From Natronococcus amylolyticus DSM 10524 (GTDB lineage Archaea; Halobacteriota; Halobacteria; Halobacteriales; Natrialbaceae): a stretch of DNA of 44,874 bases. The notes beneath the pieces are model-generated. The model was not told the origin of the DNA and made no database searches. It saw only the letters and a program-made list of their open reading frames with translations. Positions 6,822 through 10,772 of this stretch are shown in pieces; the first letter of the stretch is position 1; every line of letters starts with the position of its first letter. A program made the translations under genes and the position numbers. The stretch spans positions 21,452-66,325 of the forward strand of contig NZ_AOIB01000005.1 in NCBI RefSeq assembly GCF_000337675.1, in the 5' to 3' direction.

Positions 6822-7433
6822 ATGGAGGTCTACCACGTCACCGAGGACGCCGAGACGTTCACCTGCAACGCCTATCTGGTCGTCGGCGACCGAACCACGC
6901 TGGTCGACGCCGGGTCGTGGGACGGCATCGTCGAGGAGATCCGCGAGCACACCGACGACCTCGATGCCGTCGTGATGACCCACCAGCACGGCGACCACGT
7001 CGAACAGCTCGAGGCCGTCTGCGAGGCGTTCGACCCCGAGGTGTACGCCTACGACCACCACCCGGAACGAGACCACGCGATCGAGGACGGGGACACCGTT
7101 CGGATTGGCGACGAGGAGTTCGACGTCGTCTACACGCCCGGCCACTCGGACGACCACGTCTCGTTCGTCTCCGAGACGACGCTGTTCTCCGGCGACGTGG
7201 TCGTCCACGACGACGGCGCCTTCGACTACGGCAGCTTCGGCCGCACCGACATGGCCGGCCAGTCCCGCGAGCGACTCATCGAGAGCATCGAGGACCTCCT
7301 CGAGCGCATGCCCGACAGGGTCGAGCACATGTACGCGGGCCACGGCGACGTCTTCCACGGGGACGTCCGCGACGTCGTCGAGACAGCCCTCGAGCGGGCG
7401 GAGACGCGGGAGCCGAAGTACCCCGACGAGTAG
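6822..7433 (+). CDS. MBL-fold metallo-hydrolase
   Basis: 203 residues starting MEVYHVTEDAETFTCNAY. The metallo-beta-lactamase metal motif THQHGDH (H54, H56, D58, H59) is intact. Later ligands are the histidine in YTPGHSDDH, the aspartate in FSGDVV and the histidine in YAGHGD. The substrate is unknown; this group includes glyoxalase II-like and lactonase-like hydrolases. TATA-like ccgttttgcc at 6789-6798 supports the ATG at 6822. It is divergent from the DUF5786-DUF99 pair. The final 53 bp around the stop codon recur 156 bp downstream (see direct repeats). Confidence 0.9.
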   Translation: MEVYHVTEDAETFTCNAYLVVGDRTTLVDAGSWDGIVEEIREHTDDLDAVVMTHQHGDHVEQLEAVCEAFDPEVYAYDHHPERDHAIEDGDTVRIGDEEFDVVYTPGHSDDHVSFVSETTLFSGDVVVHDDGAFDYGSFGRTDMAGQSRERLIESIEDLLERMPDRVEHMYAGHGDVFHGDVRDVVETALERAETREPKYPDE

Positions 7434-7447
7434 CACCCGCGAGCGAC
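7395..7447 (+). repeat. 53-bp direct repeat, copy A (3' end of MBL gene)
   Basis: Bases 7395-7447 cover the last 13 codons of the MBL gene, encoding ..RAETREPKYPDE, plus stop and 14 bp of downstream DNA. They are identical to 7551-7603. Similarity with mismatches extends a further ~20 bp upstream in both copies. Confidence 0.95.
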
Positions 7448-7477
7448 TGACGGGAGCGAGCGGCTTTTTGGTCCAGA

Positions 7478-7550: not shown

Positions 7551-7603
7551 CGGGCGGAGACGCGGGAGCCGAAGTACCCCGACGAGTAGCACCCGCGAGC
7601 GAC
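7551..7603 (+). repeat. 53-bp direct repeat, copy B (orphan gene end)
   Basis: A perfect copy of 7395-7447, including the last codons and the stop of the MBL gene, but with no gene body in front of it. It lies just beyond the 3' end (7618) of the convergent DUF2249 gene. Confidence 0.95.
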
Positions 7604-7617
7604 GAACGACCGAACTC

Positions 7618-7881
7618 TCAGGGCTTCCAGACGACGGTTACTACGTCTTCTTCTCGCTCGAGCGTCTCATGTGTGTAGCCGCGCTCCTCGAGCTTCGGGA
7701 AGAGAAACTGCGGGACGCGGTCGTTGCGCTGGACGAGCACCGTCTCGTCGGGAAGCGCGGCGAGTCGCTCGAGGGTCCGCTGGAGGGGCTCCGGCGGTCC
7801 GAGCGACCGAACGTCGAGGTGGTCGGTCGGCCGATCGGTCGGGGCACAGGTTTGGTCGAGGACATCGACGTGTGACTCCAT
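7618..7881 (-). CDS. DUF2249 domain protein (copy 1)
   Basis: 87 residues. After a ~20-residue leader comes the DUF2249 pattern: LDVRSLGPPEPLQRTLERLAALPDETVL, then VPQFLFPKLEERGY and a C-terminal strand VVTVVWKP. DUF2249 is a small TusA-like fold; its biochemical role is not established. One cysteine is present (C12). The gene has its own palindrome CGAACGCGTTCG centred 44 bp before the ATG and no clear TATA box. It is one of three DUF2249 genes in 900 bp that share this operator with a membrane protein gene. Confidence 0.88.
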   Translation of the reverse strand: MESHVDVLDQTCAPTDRPTDHLDVRSLGPPEPLQRTLERLAALPDETVLVQRNDRVPQFLFPKLEERGYTHETLEREEDVVTVVWKP

Positions 7882-7918
7882 GTTCGAACGATCGTGCCGA
7901 CGGTACCAGACGTTCGTG

Positions 7919-7932
7919 CCGAACGCGTTCGG
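7919..7932 (-). promoter_or_regulatory. CGAA-N4-TTCG palindrome, site A
   Basis: ccgaacgcgttcgg, a perfect 14-bp palindrome centred about 44 bp before the start codon of DUF2249 copy 1. The same position is occupied upstream of four neighbouring genes. It is probably an activator site just upstream of the core promoter. Confidence 0.8.
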
Positions 7933-7962
7933 ACAGGTGATGGGCGCCGGCCGTCGCCCCCG

Positions 7963-8196
7963 TCAATCGCTTCGTTTCGGGAACGTCGCCTCGAACTCGT
8001 TCGGGGCGACCCGCTCGACGGCGTACCCGTCCGCGTCGAACGAGTCGACCTCCGCCTGGAACTCGTAGAACAGCGGCTTCGGTTCGTGGTCGTTGACGAT
8101 CGTGAGCGATTCGCCGACCTCGAGGTCCTCGAAGGCCTCGTGGATCATCGGGTGGCGCTCCGGCGGTGGAACCTCCCTGACGTCGAGTCGTGTCAT
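7963..8196 (-). CDS. DUF2249 domain protein (copy 2)
   Basis: 77 residues, beginning MTRLDVREVPPPERHPMIHEAFEDL and continuing with the DUF2249 core GESLTIVNDHEPKPLFYEFQAE. There is no cysteine. A short C-terminal strand pair (EFEATFPK) ends the domain. It lies 81 bp from copy 1 on the same strand but has its own palindrome (site B) centred 46 bp before its ATG, so it is probably transcribed separately. The family function is unknown. Confidence 0.9.
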   Translation of the reverse strand: MTRLDVREVPPPERHPMIHEAFEDLEVGESLTIVNDHEPKPLFYEFQAEVDSFDADGYAVERVAPNEFEATFPKRSD

Positions 8197-8235
8197 ACGG
8201 GTAGAGCTCCGGGCTCCGGTCGTATTGGTATTCGT

Positions 8236-8249
8236 CCGAACCCGTTCGG
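8236..8249 (-). promoter_or_regulatory. CGAA-N4-TTCG palindrome, site B
   Basis: ccgaacccgttcgg at 8236-8249, centred about 46 bp before the start codon of DUF2249 copy 2. It has the same arms and spacer length as sites A, C, D and E. Confidence 0.8.
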
Positions 8250-8299
8250 GCGTCCTCGAGCGCGGCGTTCGAAGCGACGGACTCGACCGACTCGCTCGC

Positions 8300-8527
8300 T
8301 CAGGGACGCTCGATCAGCACGTGCCATTCGTTCTCGCCGGACCGTTCGGTCTCGAACGACAGCCCGCGTCCCTCGAGCACCTCGTACAGCGGCACCGGTT
8401 CGAACCCCGCGATCAGCCGCAGTCGTTCGTCGGCCTCGAGCGCGTCCAGTGCGGCGGTGATTCGCGCGAACGGCGGGCCGTCGATCTCGCGAACGTCGAG
8501 GGTCGTCTCGGTCGTGGTCGTTCCCAT
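8300..8527 (-). CDS. DUF2249 domain protein (copy 3)
   Basis: 75 residues, starting MGTTTTETTLDVREIDGPPFARITAAL, then RLRLIAGFEPVPLYEVLEGRGL and the end strand NEWHVLIERP. The shared LDVRE(I/V) start and the EPxPL(Y/F) motif align it with copy 2. The ATG at 8525-8527 is chosen because site C lies 45.5 bp upstream, matching its neighbours; longer in-frame extensions overlap the divergent membrane-protein gene. No cysteine is present. It is divergent from the CcoN/NnrS-like gene. Confidence 0.9.
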   Translation of the reverse strand: MGTTTTETTLDVREIDGPPFARITAALDALEADERLRLIAGFEPVPLYEVLEGRGLSFETERSGENEWHVLIERP

Positions 8528-8565
8528 ACGCGACCGATAGCACGTGCCCCAAGGATGACGTTCGT

Positions 8566-8579
8566 GCGAACAGGTTCGA
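8566..8579 (-). promoter_or_regulatory. CGAA-N4-TTCG palindrome, site C
   Basis: cgaacaggttcg at 8567-8578, centred 45.5 bp before DUF2249 copy 3. Next to it on the minus strand is cacgaacgtc, also found beside site A. Confidence 0.72.
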
Positions 8580-8711
8580 CTGCGCCTCCAGGCGGTCTCC
8601 CTCCCGCCTTGAGTCGGCCACCCGCCCCGAACCGATCGTGCTCCCGCTCCGAACCGGTCGTCTCCACTCGAGCATCGCGAGGCCCCTCGCTGCGCAGCCC
8701 GACGACGTCCG

Positions 8712-8725
8712 CCGAACCCGTTCGG
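8712..8725 (+). promoter_or_regulatory. CGAA-N4-TTCG palindrome, site D
   Basis: ccgaacccgttcgg at 8712-8725, centred 44.5 bp before the ATG at 8763. It is followed by gagcaggg, and the equivalent position next to site E reads cagcaggg. The rest of the 8528-8762 divergent region is GC-rich without a TATA box. Confidence 0.8.
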
Positions 8726-8762
8726 GAGCAGGGCGACGGTCGACCGGTCCGAACGACGAGGT

Positions 8763-10124
8763 ATGAGCACGATTCCGGACGGGTTGCGGACCGATCGGAC
8801 GCCACCGATCTCGATCCCGCTCCAGCACTTTCTGGTCGGGCTCTGTTTTCTCGTCGTCGGGATCGGCGCGGGAACGATCCTGTCGGTCACCGCGCTGCCG
8901 GGGCTGGCTGACGTCGCCCAGCTCCACCTGCTTCTGGTCGGCTGGATCGCGCTGACCATCATGGGCGCGATGACGCAGTTCGTCCCCGTCTGGTCCGGCG
9001 TAGCACTTCACTCGAAGCGACTCGCGACGGCCCAGCTCTGGCTGGTCGTGGGCGGACTGGTCGGCTTCGCGGCCGCCCTCGCGACCGGGTCGGTCTCGCT
9101 CCTGCCGATCGCCGCGGGACTGTTGCTCGCCGGCGTGTGGCTCTTCGTCTACACGATCGGCCGAACCCTGCTGCGAGCCCGGCCGCTCGACCGGACGGAG
9201 CGACACTTCGCGTTCGCCCTCTTCTGTTTCGCCGCGCTCGCCCCCCTCGGGACGCTGCTCGCGGCCTCGTTCTCGACGTCGGTGCTCGAGAGCCTGCCCG
9301 TCACACGAGGCGGTATCCTCCTCGCTCACGCGACCGTCGCGCTTTACGGCGCCGTCCTCGTGACGATCGCCGGCGCACTGTCACAGCTCGCGACGATGTT
9401 CACCCAGACGGAGTACGCGACGATCGACCGACATCTCCTCGGACTCGAGGAACTCGCCCTCTACGGCGGCGTCGCGGCGCTTGCCGTCGGCCGCGGGGTC
9501 GGTCTCGAGTCCCTCGCCCGCGCCGGCGCGCTGGCGGTACTCGTCGGTGCGGCCGCGCTGGGGCTCGTGATCGCTCGAGCGCTGTTCCGGTCGACCGTCG
9601 AGCGCAGCCCGATGACCGCACGGTACTGGGTCGTCGTCGGATCGCTGCTCGCCTGGGCCGTCCTCGCCGTACCGGCGTGGTGGCGCGATCCGACGGGCCA
9701 GGCGGGGCTGTTCGGCGCACCCGGAACGACCGACCTGCTCGTCCTCGGCGTGTTCGGTTTCGTCGTCGTCGGCACGCTCTACCACGTGATCCCGTTTATC
9801 GTCTGGCTCGAGCACTACAGCGATCGGATCGGACTCGAACCCGTCCCGACGATCGACGACCTCTACTCGAGCCGGCTCGAGCGTGCCGACTTCGGGCTCA
9901 CGCTCGCCGGCTTCCTCGTCCTCGCGGTCGCCGGACTGCTCTCGCTGCCGACCTGGCTCGCCGCGGTCGGTGGCGCCCTCGCGAGCGTCGGGTTCGCGCT
10001 CTTCGCCGCTAATATGGTGTGGACACTCCGCCGACACGGTCCCGGGGGTGTGGGCGACGTCGTCCGCGGAACCGGTAGCGATTCGGAGCCCGACGCGACT
10101 GAGGTCGACCGCGTCGGCGATTAG
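8763..10124 (+). CDS. CcoN/NnrS-like multi-pass membrane protein
   Basis: 453 residues with about 12 predicted membrane helices. Histidines in helices resemble haem or metal ligands of the haem-copper oxidase/NnrS superfamily: H22 (PLQHFLVG), H55 (QLHLLLVGW), H189 (LLAHATVALYG) and H341 (LYHVIPFIVW). The segment IMGAMTQFVPVWSG is typical of CcoN-related (COG3278-like) proteins that lack full oxidase function. It probably acts in the cytoplasmic membrane in nitrogen-oxide or oxygen-limited metabolism; this is inferred from family resemblance and from the shared palindromic operator with the DUF2249 genes. No catalytic partner subunit is adjacent. Confidence 0.82.
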   Translation: MSTIPDGLRTDRTPPISIPLQHFLVGLCFLVVGIGAGTILSVTALPGLADVAQLHLLLVGWIALTIMGAMTQFVPVWSGVALHSKRLATAQLWLVVGGLVGFAAALATGSVSLLPIAAGLLLAGVWLFVYTIGRTLLRARPLDRTERHFAFALFCFAALAPLGTLLAASFSTSVLESLPVTRGGILLAHATVALYGAVLVTIAGALSQLATMFTQTEYATIDRHLLGLEELALYGGVAALAVGRGVGLESLARAGALAVLVGAAALGLVIARALFRSTVERSPMTARYWVVVGSLLAWAVLAVPAWWRDPTGQAGLFGAPGTTDLLVLGVFGFVVVGTLYHVIPFIVWLEHYSDRIGLEPVPTIDDLYSSRLERADFGLTLAGFLVLAVAGLLSLPTWLAAVGGALASVGFALFAANMVWTLRRHGPGGVGDVVRGTGSDSEPDATEVDRVGD

Positions 10125-10208
10125 GTCCCCGGACGAATCATTTTCGACCGCACTCCAGGCCGACGATCGATCTTCGACAGAAGAGACGTTGGCGAACGAG
10201 CTGACGGT

Positions 10209-10721
10209 TCAGTCCGAGAGCGCCGACTCGAGCGGTTCGCCCGCTTCGAGCGCCCGTTCGGCCCGCTCGAGCGAGGCCTCGAGCGCGTCGGCCTGCTGGT
10301 GCATCGGGTGGACGCGCACCCGAACCCGATCGTACTCGTGTCGGTCCGCGAGCGCGTTCCACGCCCGGAACGACCCCGTGACGAGCGCGTCGGCGATCGG
10401 ACAGAACGCCGTCGTCGGGGTGAACTCCGCCCGGAGTACGCCGGGGTCGTCGGCGTCGACCGCGTACCTGAAGCCGGCCTCGGGCTGTCGGCGGTCGAGG
10501 TTGAGTCTGGCGAGGTTGTAGCCGAAGGTGGCGTCGTACACGCCCCGCTCCTCGAAGAGGTCGTGGGTGAGTCGGTGAAACGCCGCGTGATCCCCGTCCT
10601 CGAGGAGCGCGTGGCCCTCGAGGAACGGCCCGGGATCGGGGAGGTGAGCGGGGACGAACTCGTCCCAGCCGTCGAACGCCGCGTTGGCGTCGTCTGATCG
10701 GCCGCGCGAGAGCGGGTTCAT
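10209..10721 (-). CDS. Hypothetical protein of the DUF2249 cluster, weakly MIP18/DUF59-like
   Basis: 170 residues. The N-terminal half is His-rich (GHALLEDGDHAAFHRLTHD). The C-terminal half contains TPTTAFCPIADALVTGSFRAW with the only cysteine (C107), then VRVRVHPMHQQADAL. A conserved Cys after a threonine-rich strand followed by a helix and a Vxv strand recalls MIP18/PaaD-type iron-sulfur assembly proteins, but the match is weak. The gene shares the CGAA-N4-TTCG operator (site E, 44.5 bp upstream) with the DUF2249 and membrane-protein genes, which argues for a common pathway. It converges on the membrane-protein gene. Confidence 0.78.
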   Translation of the reverse strand: MNPLSRGRSDDANAAFDGWDEFVPAHLPDPGPFLEGHALLEDGDHAAFHRLTHDLFEERGVYDATFGYNLARLNLDRRQPEAGFRYAVDADDPGVLRAEFTPTTAFCPIADALVTGSFRAWNALADRHEYDRVRVRVHPMHQQADALEASLERAERALEAGEPLESALSD

Positions 10722-10758
10722 ATCCGAGCGTACGGGCGGCGGCTCCCTGGCCCTGCTG

Positions 10759-10772
10759 CCGAACGGATTCGG
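10759..10772 (-). promoter_or_regulatory. CGAA-N4-TTCG palindrome, site E
   Basis: ccgaacggattcgg, centred 44.5 bp before the ATG at 10719-10721. On the minus strand it is followed by cagcaggg, matching the flank of site D. Confidence 0.78.

Follow-up and report, generated by a model that had tools for sequence, protein, structure and literature searches.

A CGAA-N4-TTCG operator at fixed spacing marks a probable accessory denitrification regulon in Natronococcus amylolyticus and other haloarchaea

The stretch of Natronococcus amylolyticus DSM 10524 analysed here (44,874 nucleotides of contig NZ_AOIB01000005.1, positions 21,452 to 66,325; hereafter the window) carries five genes that are each preceded, at a nearly constant distance, by the palindromic operator CGAA-N4-TTCG. 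These are three DUF2249 genes, a gene for a membrane protein related to heme-copper oxidases and a gene for a one-cysteine protein that resembles MIP18 (Table 1). They are best explained jointly as accessory members of a regulon for denitrification and nitric oxide (NO), in which a Bat/HTH_10-type activator would bind at -44.5 on TATA-less, leaderless promoters; the probability of this reading is put at roughly 0.8. The denitrification link of the regulon is well supported, and comparison of promoters among relatives supports a regulon that is real across the haloarchaeal class.

Table 1. Operators, genes and core promoter of the candidate regulon in the window (aa, amino acids)
Feature	Positions	Strand	Remarks
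DUF2249-1, 87 aa	7618..7881	-	Pfam PF10006, E 6e-16, 58.5 bits; TusA E 3e-4, sub-threshold
Operator 1, CGAACGCGTTCG	7920..7931	-	38 bp to DUF2249-1 ATG; exact match, intergenic; same placement in DUF2249 orthologues
DUF2249-2, 77 aa	7963..8196	-	Pfam PF10006, E 7e-25, 87 bits
Operator 2, CGAACGGGTTCG	8237..8248	-	40 bp to DUF2249-2 ATG; exact, intergenic
DUF2249-3, 75 aa	8300..8527	-	Pfam PF10006, E 2e-18, 66.7 bits
Operator 3, CGAACCTGTTCG	8567..8578	-	39 bp to DUF2249-3 ATG; exact, intergenic
Operator 4, CGAACCCGTTCG	8713..8724	+	38 bp to ATG of heme-copper-oxidase-like gene; placement kept in relatives
TATA-less core promoter, membrane gene	8725..8762	+	A -33 (8730), A -27 (8736), G -25 (8738), C -13, AA -11/-10, pyrimidine -1
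Membrane protein gene, 453 aa	8763..10124	+	Predicted 12-helix heme-copper-oxidase fold (CcoN/NorB-like); AlphaFold pLDDT 88.6
MIP18/CIAO2B/DUF59-like protein, 170 aa	10209..10721	-	One invariant Cys in EFTPTT-FC-P
Operator 5, CGAATCCGTTCG	10760..10771	-	38 bp to MIP18-like gene ATG; exact, intergenic; top genome-wide match of the promoter model

The five palindromes reported in the initial annotation are all exact copies at the places given for them. Their centres lie 44.5, 46.5, 45.5, 44.5 and 44.5 bp before the start codons (operators 1 to 5); four of these distances had been given correctly, but the second had been put at 46. Exact CGAA-N4-TTCG occurs 11 times in the window, whereas dinucleotide shuffles give an expectation of 1.73 +/- 1.35 (0 of 100 shuffles reached 11). 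Each of the six further copies (7992, 24065, 25267, 25489, 26550 and 44264) falls within a predicted coding sequence, so that the five operators are the only intergenic ones in the window, as had been supposed. At the shuffle rate, the chance of five matches for five genes with four allowed positions each is about 2e-18. The bare motif is common in this genome, a circumstance that had been named as one speaking against a regulon: 271 copies were counted against a window shuffle expectation of about 170 when scaled up, and by that expectation the majority are probably coding background. Because of this background the genome-wide count of the exact motif is uninformative as a test; the signal is therefore the motif with its spacing, and the spaced copies do stand out. 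All five window promoters have A at +6 and A or T at +12 from the operator and a pyrimidine at -1, and four of the five rank 1st, 2nd, 4th and 8th genome-wide under a 45-nt promoter model trained on promoters of relatives, the window's own promoters not being used.

For the membrane-protein gene, conservation of this arrangement was followed in 80 named relatives from haloarchaea, which are related to one another. NGAA-N4-TTCG stands 37-41 bp before the ATG in 76 of the 80 and at exactly 38 bp in 59. Among these 59 promoters the GAA and TTCG half-sites are invariant, and single columns further downstream are strongly conserved, namely G -38 (88%), A -33 (93%), A -27 (97%), G -25 (95%), C -13 (90%), A/T at -11/-10 (85-86%) and a pyrimidine at -1 (100%). 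TTWT/TWTA at -33 to -22 was found in none of these 59 promoters, whereas 20% of the other genes in those loci have it. The lack of a good TATA box noted in the initial annotation is thus both confirmed and conserved, and its placing of an activator-type site just upstream of a degenerate core promoter is supported. Transcription of the membrane gene would start at the A of its ATG.

Orthologues of the other genes were compared in the same way. An operator match lies 30-48 bp before the start in 74 of 105 DUF2249 orthologues, 29 of 60 orthologues of the MIP18-like gene have the common layout, and orthologues of an HTH_10 regulator gene and a cupin gene are arranged as the window genes are. Five non-homologous families have in common an operator centred at -44.5, A/T at -27 and about -10, a pyrimidine at -1 and no TATA box. 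As the families are mutually non-homologous, descent from one promoter is no explanation for this layout, which fits activator-dependent leaderless promoters. For 1071 other predicted genes in the relatives' loci, the gap between palindrome and possible ATG peaks sharply at 37-39 bp (14, 27 and 14 cases); almost every other distance is represented 0-5 times, and smaller accumulations appear at 60-68 and 73-81 bp. Where the gap is 40-46 bp, A/T still stands at +12 (94%) and +29 (88%) from the operator; the distance from operator to start site therefore appears to be fixed, and the ATG may come a few bases later. Promoters of this type (class A below) keep the A/T at -10 and single A/T positions, not the TATA box.

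The same palindrome is known from denitrification genes. According to PMC5746218, which cites Hattori 2016, CGAA-N4-TTCG is needed for nirK reporter activity in H. volcanii. In H. mediterranei, mutation of the motif CGAAYATDKTYG lowers nor and nos promoter activity, and the distance from site to ATG is 66 bp for nor, 69 bp for nos and 79 bp for nirK (PMC10062603). All four DUF2249 genes of that species are induced by denitrification, with the motif at two of them, and its induced motif-bearing genes already include a Bat-type regulator (PMC11218638). The window shares palindrome and pathway with the published haloarchaeal CGAA-N4-TTCG/NarO element (PMC5746218, PMC10062603, PMC11218638). It differs in spacing, its sites lying 38-40 bp out on TATA-less promoters as against 66-79 bp in H. 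mediterranei, and in targets, since Natronococcus has no site at nar and no complete site at nirK; the regulator, too, is probably not NarO.

Gene neighbourhoods and co-occurrence point to the same pathway. A nirK-HTH_10-norB-halocyanin-ahbD cluster of H. larsenii also houses the membrane gene and a DUF2249 gene; in it, the nirK, nor, ahbD, halocyanin, DUF2249, membrane and HTH_10 genes each have an operator and most flanking genes have none. In Natrononativus, a single plasmid cluster unites three DUF2249 genes with HTH_10, cupin, FeS/NrfD, MoaD/ThiS, membrane and MIP18-like genes, and parts of this cluster are dispersed across contigs in the Natronococcus genome. Among 116 genomes of the order, nirK accompanies the membrane gene in 52 of 64 cases and occurs in 9 of the 52 genomes that lack it (odds ratio 21, P 3e-12), although P values for such co-occurrence overstate independence because the genomes are related. 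The loose spaced pattern was swamped by coding matches in these genomes and became informative after G -38 and A -33 had been added; the count of operator plus spacing per genome is 4.2 with nirK and 1.2 without. Of the oxygen/denitrification response proposed in the initial annotation, the denitrification part is thus upheld by the published operator, by synteny with nirK, nor and ahbD and by co-occurrence with nirK, whereas oxygen is one candidate signal only.

The Natronococcus genome encodes nirK, a nar operon, and ScdA/RIC followed by qNorB. Genome-wide promoter assignments come from pattern and model searches and from selected stretches; the promoter-model list consists mostly of coding matches below rank 10, and the promoters accepted were those of a MoaD/ThiS-like gene (gap 38, with T in place of the first C), the ScdA gene (gap 66), a cupin gene found by pattern search (gap 38; L034) and, less surely, an anaerobic-type molybdoenzyme operon that probably carries an operator at gap 41. 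The nar and narO promoters have no CGAA-N4-TTCG, and the divergent narO/nar intergenic region (L126:1843-2030, C28) has two strong TATA boxes; nitrate reductase thus appears to stand outside the regulon in this genome. At nirK the promoter shows an incomplete half-site together with a TTCC-N9-GGAA dyad (L125:879-895) and no complete operator. Since it is found at ScdA/RIC, cupin and MoaD-like genes and not at nar, the operator marks NO-handling and accessory functions here rather than nitrate reduction, and with such targets an oxygen response is just one of the candidate signals. The qNorB frame (L126:9900-13169, C28) is open for 1089 codons, and about 370 residues precede its NorB cytochrome-c-like domain, pointing to either a wrong start or an unusual N-terminal extension.

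There are 55 HTH_10 matches in the genome, two of which are candidate regulators. The NarO orthologue that had been expected was found beside the nar operon (C28:147172-147843; L126:1172-1843). It has DmsR_N and HTH_10 domains, and its cysteines (C17, C86, C88 and C96) fit CXnCXCX7C, the arrangement of NarO. The second is a 225-aa HTH_10 protein (C20:88035-88709; the C20 regulator) that adjoins nirK; its only cysteines are Cys173 and Cys189, and as it has HTH_10 but not the four-cysteine motif it is a relative within the Bat family and not NarO. In 21 of the 80 loci a homologue of this type is found no more than about 8 kb from the membrane gene, and 18 of 25 such regulator genes examined have an operator 36-50 bp before the ATG. 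Five of the 25 (L125, L104, L113, L118 and L159), including that of Natronococcus with a copy 1 bp before the ATG (L125:2022-2033), have CGAA-N4-TTCG 1-4 bp before the ATG, and four of these five have a second copy 37-49 bp upstream; operator copies in both places suggest self-activation with a built-in brake. The C20-type regulator is associated with the membrane gene across genomes (Fisher P 3e-6), which is no proof of which protein binds because members of this family occur almost throughout the order. NarO is reportedly missing from H. mediterranei, yet the motif is functional in that species (PMC10062603), and its nirK-nor cluster has a motif-bearing bacterioopsin-activator-like gene (PMC10062603, PMC11218638) that probably corresponds to the C20-type regulator. 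We favour the nirK-linked C20 protein over NarO as the most likely regulator. At the Bat-controlled bop promoter, an upstream activating sequence lies next to an unusual TATA box. That promoter likewise has the site of an HTH_10-family activator directly upstream of a poor core promoter, but its operator sequence and signal are different, and here many unlinked genes have one rigid layout.

In the mechanism that we propose, a dimer of a small Bat/HTH_10-family activator would bind CGAA-N4-TTCG centred at about -44.5, touch the TFB/TBP complex directly downstream and so recruit TFB/TBP to the core promoter. This core promoter has lost its TATA box and keeps only single key A/T positions (-27 and about -10, often also A at -33). 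Leaderless transcription would then begin at the first base of the start codon, with the distance to the operator fixed at 38-40 bp. The C20 protein may also control its own gene by way of this operator, with NarO possibly acting upstream, and the signal may be NO or nitrite and/or low oxygen.

Several points weigh against this reading. The 80 membrane-gene relatives are phylogenetically non-independent, and the correlation of the per-genome pattern count with the membrane gene is partly circular because that gene's own promoter is counted. With nar free of the operator and nirK left with a half-site, the regulon is not simply a switch for denitrification. Furthermore, 12 of the 116 genomes have the membrane gene without nirK. 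These genomes, which also have operators, are among the reasons to consider that the cluster may respond more widely to an anaerobic or a metal/Fe-S stress cue, denitrification being just one setting; operators at MntR/DtxR-like, copper P-type ATPase, heme synthesis and peroxiredoxin genes and the anaerobic-type molybdoenzyme gene of Natronococcus (41 bp) point the same way. Such a cue is nevertheless the less likely explanation, given the strong overall association with nirK and the physical linkage to nirK, nor and ahbD. Slightly less likely still is direct binding of all five operators by NarO, the oxygen-sensing four-cysteine Bat-type protein. An orthologue is present, and NarO has been tied to this element in H. 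volcanii (PMC5746218, PMC10062603), but its action at these sites is uncertain: the adjoining nar operon has a canonical TATA box and no operator, the motif works in a species reported to lack NarO, and the operator stands before genes of the other HTH_10 regulator, which is the one with ties to the regulon.

An operator near -44.5 suits an activator but is compatible with a repressor too, and a NO- or redox-responsive HTH_10 protein might block TFB/TBP assembly until the signal arrives; the site abuts the core promoter, and the ATG-proximal copies in five of 25 regulator genes are in a blocking position. This is improbable, as TATA-less core promoters would be weak unaided and, in H. mediterranei, the nor and nos promoters lose activity when the motif is mutated. 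Finally, the 271 genome-wide copies might suggest that the palindrome recurs by chance in haloarchaeal sequence rich in CGAA/TTCG, an origin ruled out for practical purposes by the fixed spacing, the conservation and the gap histogram. Activation of accessory denitrification and NO genes by a Bat/HTH_10 protein is retained as the most probable explanation of the five operators.

The palindrome may also serve a second promoter architecture. Genes with the operator 62-70 bp out (class B) are mostly catalytic, their products having the size and N-terminus of NirK, NorB, NosZ and AhbD. Seventeen non-redundant class B cases have a second dyad (consensus TTCCC-N8-GGAA) between +7 and +22, followed by a T-rich/TATA stretch between +35 and +40. 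TTCC-N9-GGAA occurs at one exact offset in 9 of 33 non-redundant class B promoters and with a one-base shift in 7 of 33, against 0 of 57 class A promoters at either offset, a comparison made post hoc. Examples between operator and TATA box in nirK, norB, nosZ and ahbD promoters were seen in L049, L051, L058, L060, L061, L070, L114 and L160. Tentatively, and with the balance tipping slightly the other way, one palindrome may support two architectures: class A for accessory genes (centre at -44.5, 37-40 bp to a leaderless start, TATA-less) and class B for catalytic genes (nirK, norB, nosZ and ahbD; about 64-67 bp, TTCC-N9-GGAA and TATA), which would parallel, in archaea, the class II and class I modes of activation in bacteria. 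Class B would be under a second regulator, perhaps NarO, and the nirK-linked Bat-type protein would drive class A and itself.

The membrane protein is annotated only as a hypothetical protein. The likeness to CcoN first proposed for it is borne out by its predicted model, which matches cbb3 CcoN with Z 36.7 (3.0 A over 396 residues) and nitric oxide reductase with Z 34.4, but the likeness to NnrS proposed alongside was rejected, PF05940 matching just 2 of 41 orthologues (best E 0.13). COX1 (PF00115) matches 31 of the 41 orthologues, the window's own copy being unmatched. Histidines are conserved in the orthologues in transmembrane helices (TM) 2, 6, 10 and 12. The 12-helix fold and the histidines of TM2, TM6 and TM10 are in common with the CcoN/NorB superfamily, whereas the His-His pair of TM7 (CuB site) is not conserved: no conserved histidine occurs in residues 215-246, TM7 being placed by helix order and not by superposition. 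The usual CuB site thus seems incomplete, and the protein may have a role in NO or electron handling in the membrane.

The three DUF2249 genes are the only ones in the genome, and all score above the PF10006 gathering score of 29.5 bits. DUF2249 proteins have also been linked to nitrate respiration in Thermus thermophilus (DrpA/DrpB), but that system has the regulators DnrS/DnrT and another domain organisation, and the accessible text of PMC6282519 describes no CGAA-N4-TTCG operator. The 170-aa one-cysteine protein resembles MIP18/DUF59 iron-sulfur proteins in its predicted structure: Foldseek finds CIAO2B with probability 0.99 (E 9e-3), and VIA Z is 7.4-8.0 against CIAO2B, with the first unrelated rows from 4.9. 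Against PF01883 (DUF59) it scores 13.1 bits, under the cut-off of 23.5. A role in Fe-S metabolism may be proposed from this resemblance, and together the DUF2249 and MIP18-like products could act in sensing and in sulfur/Fe-S or metal-centre upkeep.

Further families in the related loci carry the operator. Putative radical-SAM-modified peptides of the CGCGG (TIGR03995) and Htur_1727 (TIGR04031) families have it at 37-38 bp (17 and 5 genes in clusters; for example L049:6625, minus strand, and L058:7361, plus strand), and are putative denitrification-linked ribosomally synthesized and post-translationally modified peptides (RiPPs). It was also seen at 36-42 bp before genes for MntR/DtxR-like regulators, a copper P-type ATPase, a heme O synthase fusion, peroxiredoxins and halocyanins. 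In the window itself, a direct repeat of about 50 bp (7396-7448 and 7552-7604) recopies the 3' end and stop codon of a metallo-beta-lactamase-fold gene just downstream of it.

The palindrome itself had been described before. What is new, as far as the accessible literature shows, is the fixed class A layout without a TATA box, together with its conservation throughout the class and several of the members. Through denitrification, haloarchaea release N2O from salt environments, and published work calls the regulation of this process poorly known. The analysis provides a base-level promoter model for the class (operator, spacing and core positions) and a concrete candidate regulator other than NarO. 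It also assigns uncharacterised genes to the pathway, among them a heme-copper-oxidase relative without the usual CuB histidines, a MIP18-like protein, DUF2249 trios and two putative RiPP families. The system would serve as a test case for how an archaeal activator may start transcription without a TATA box.

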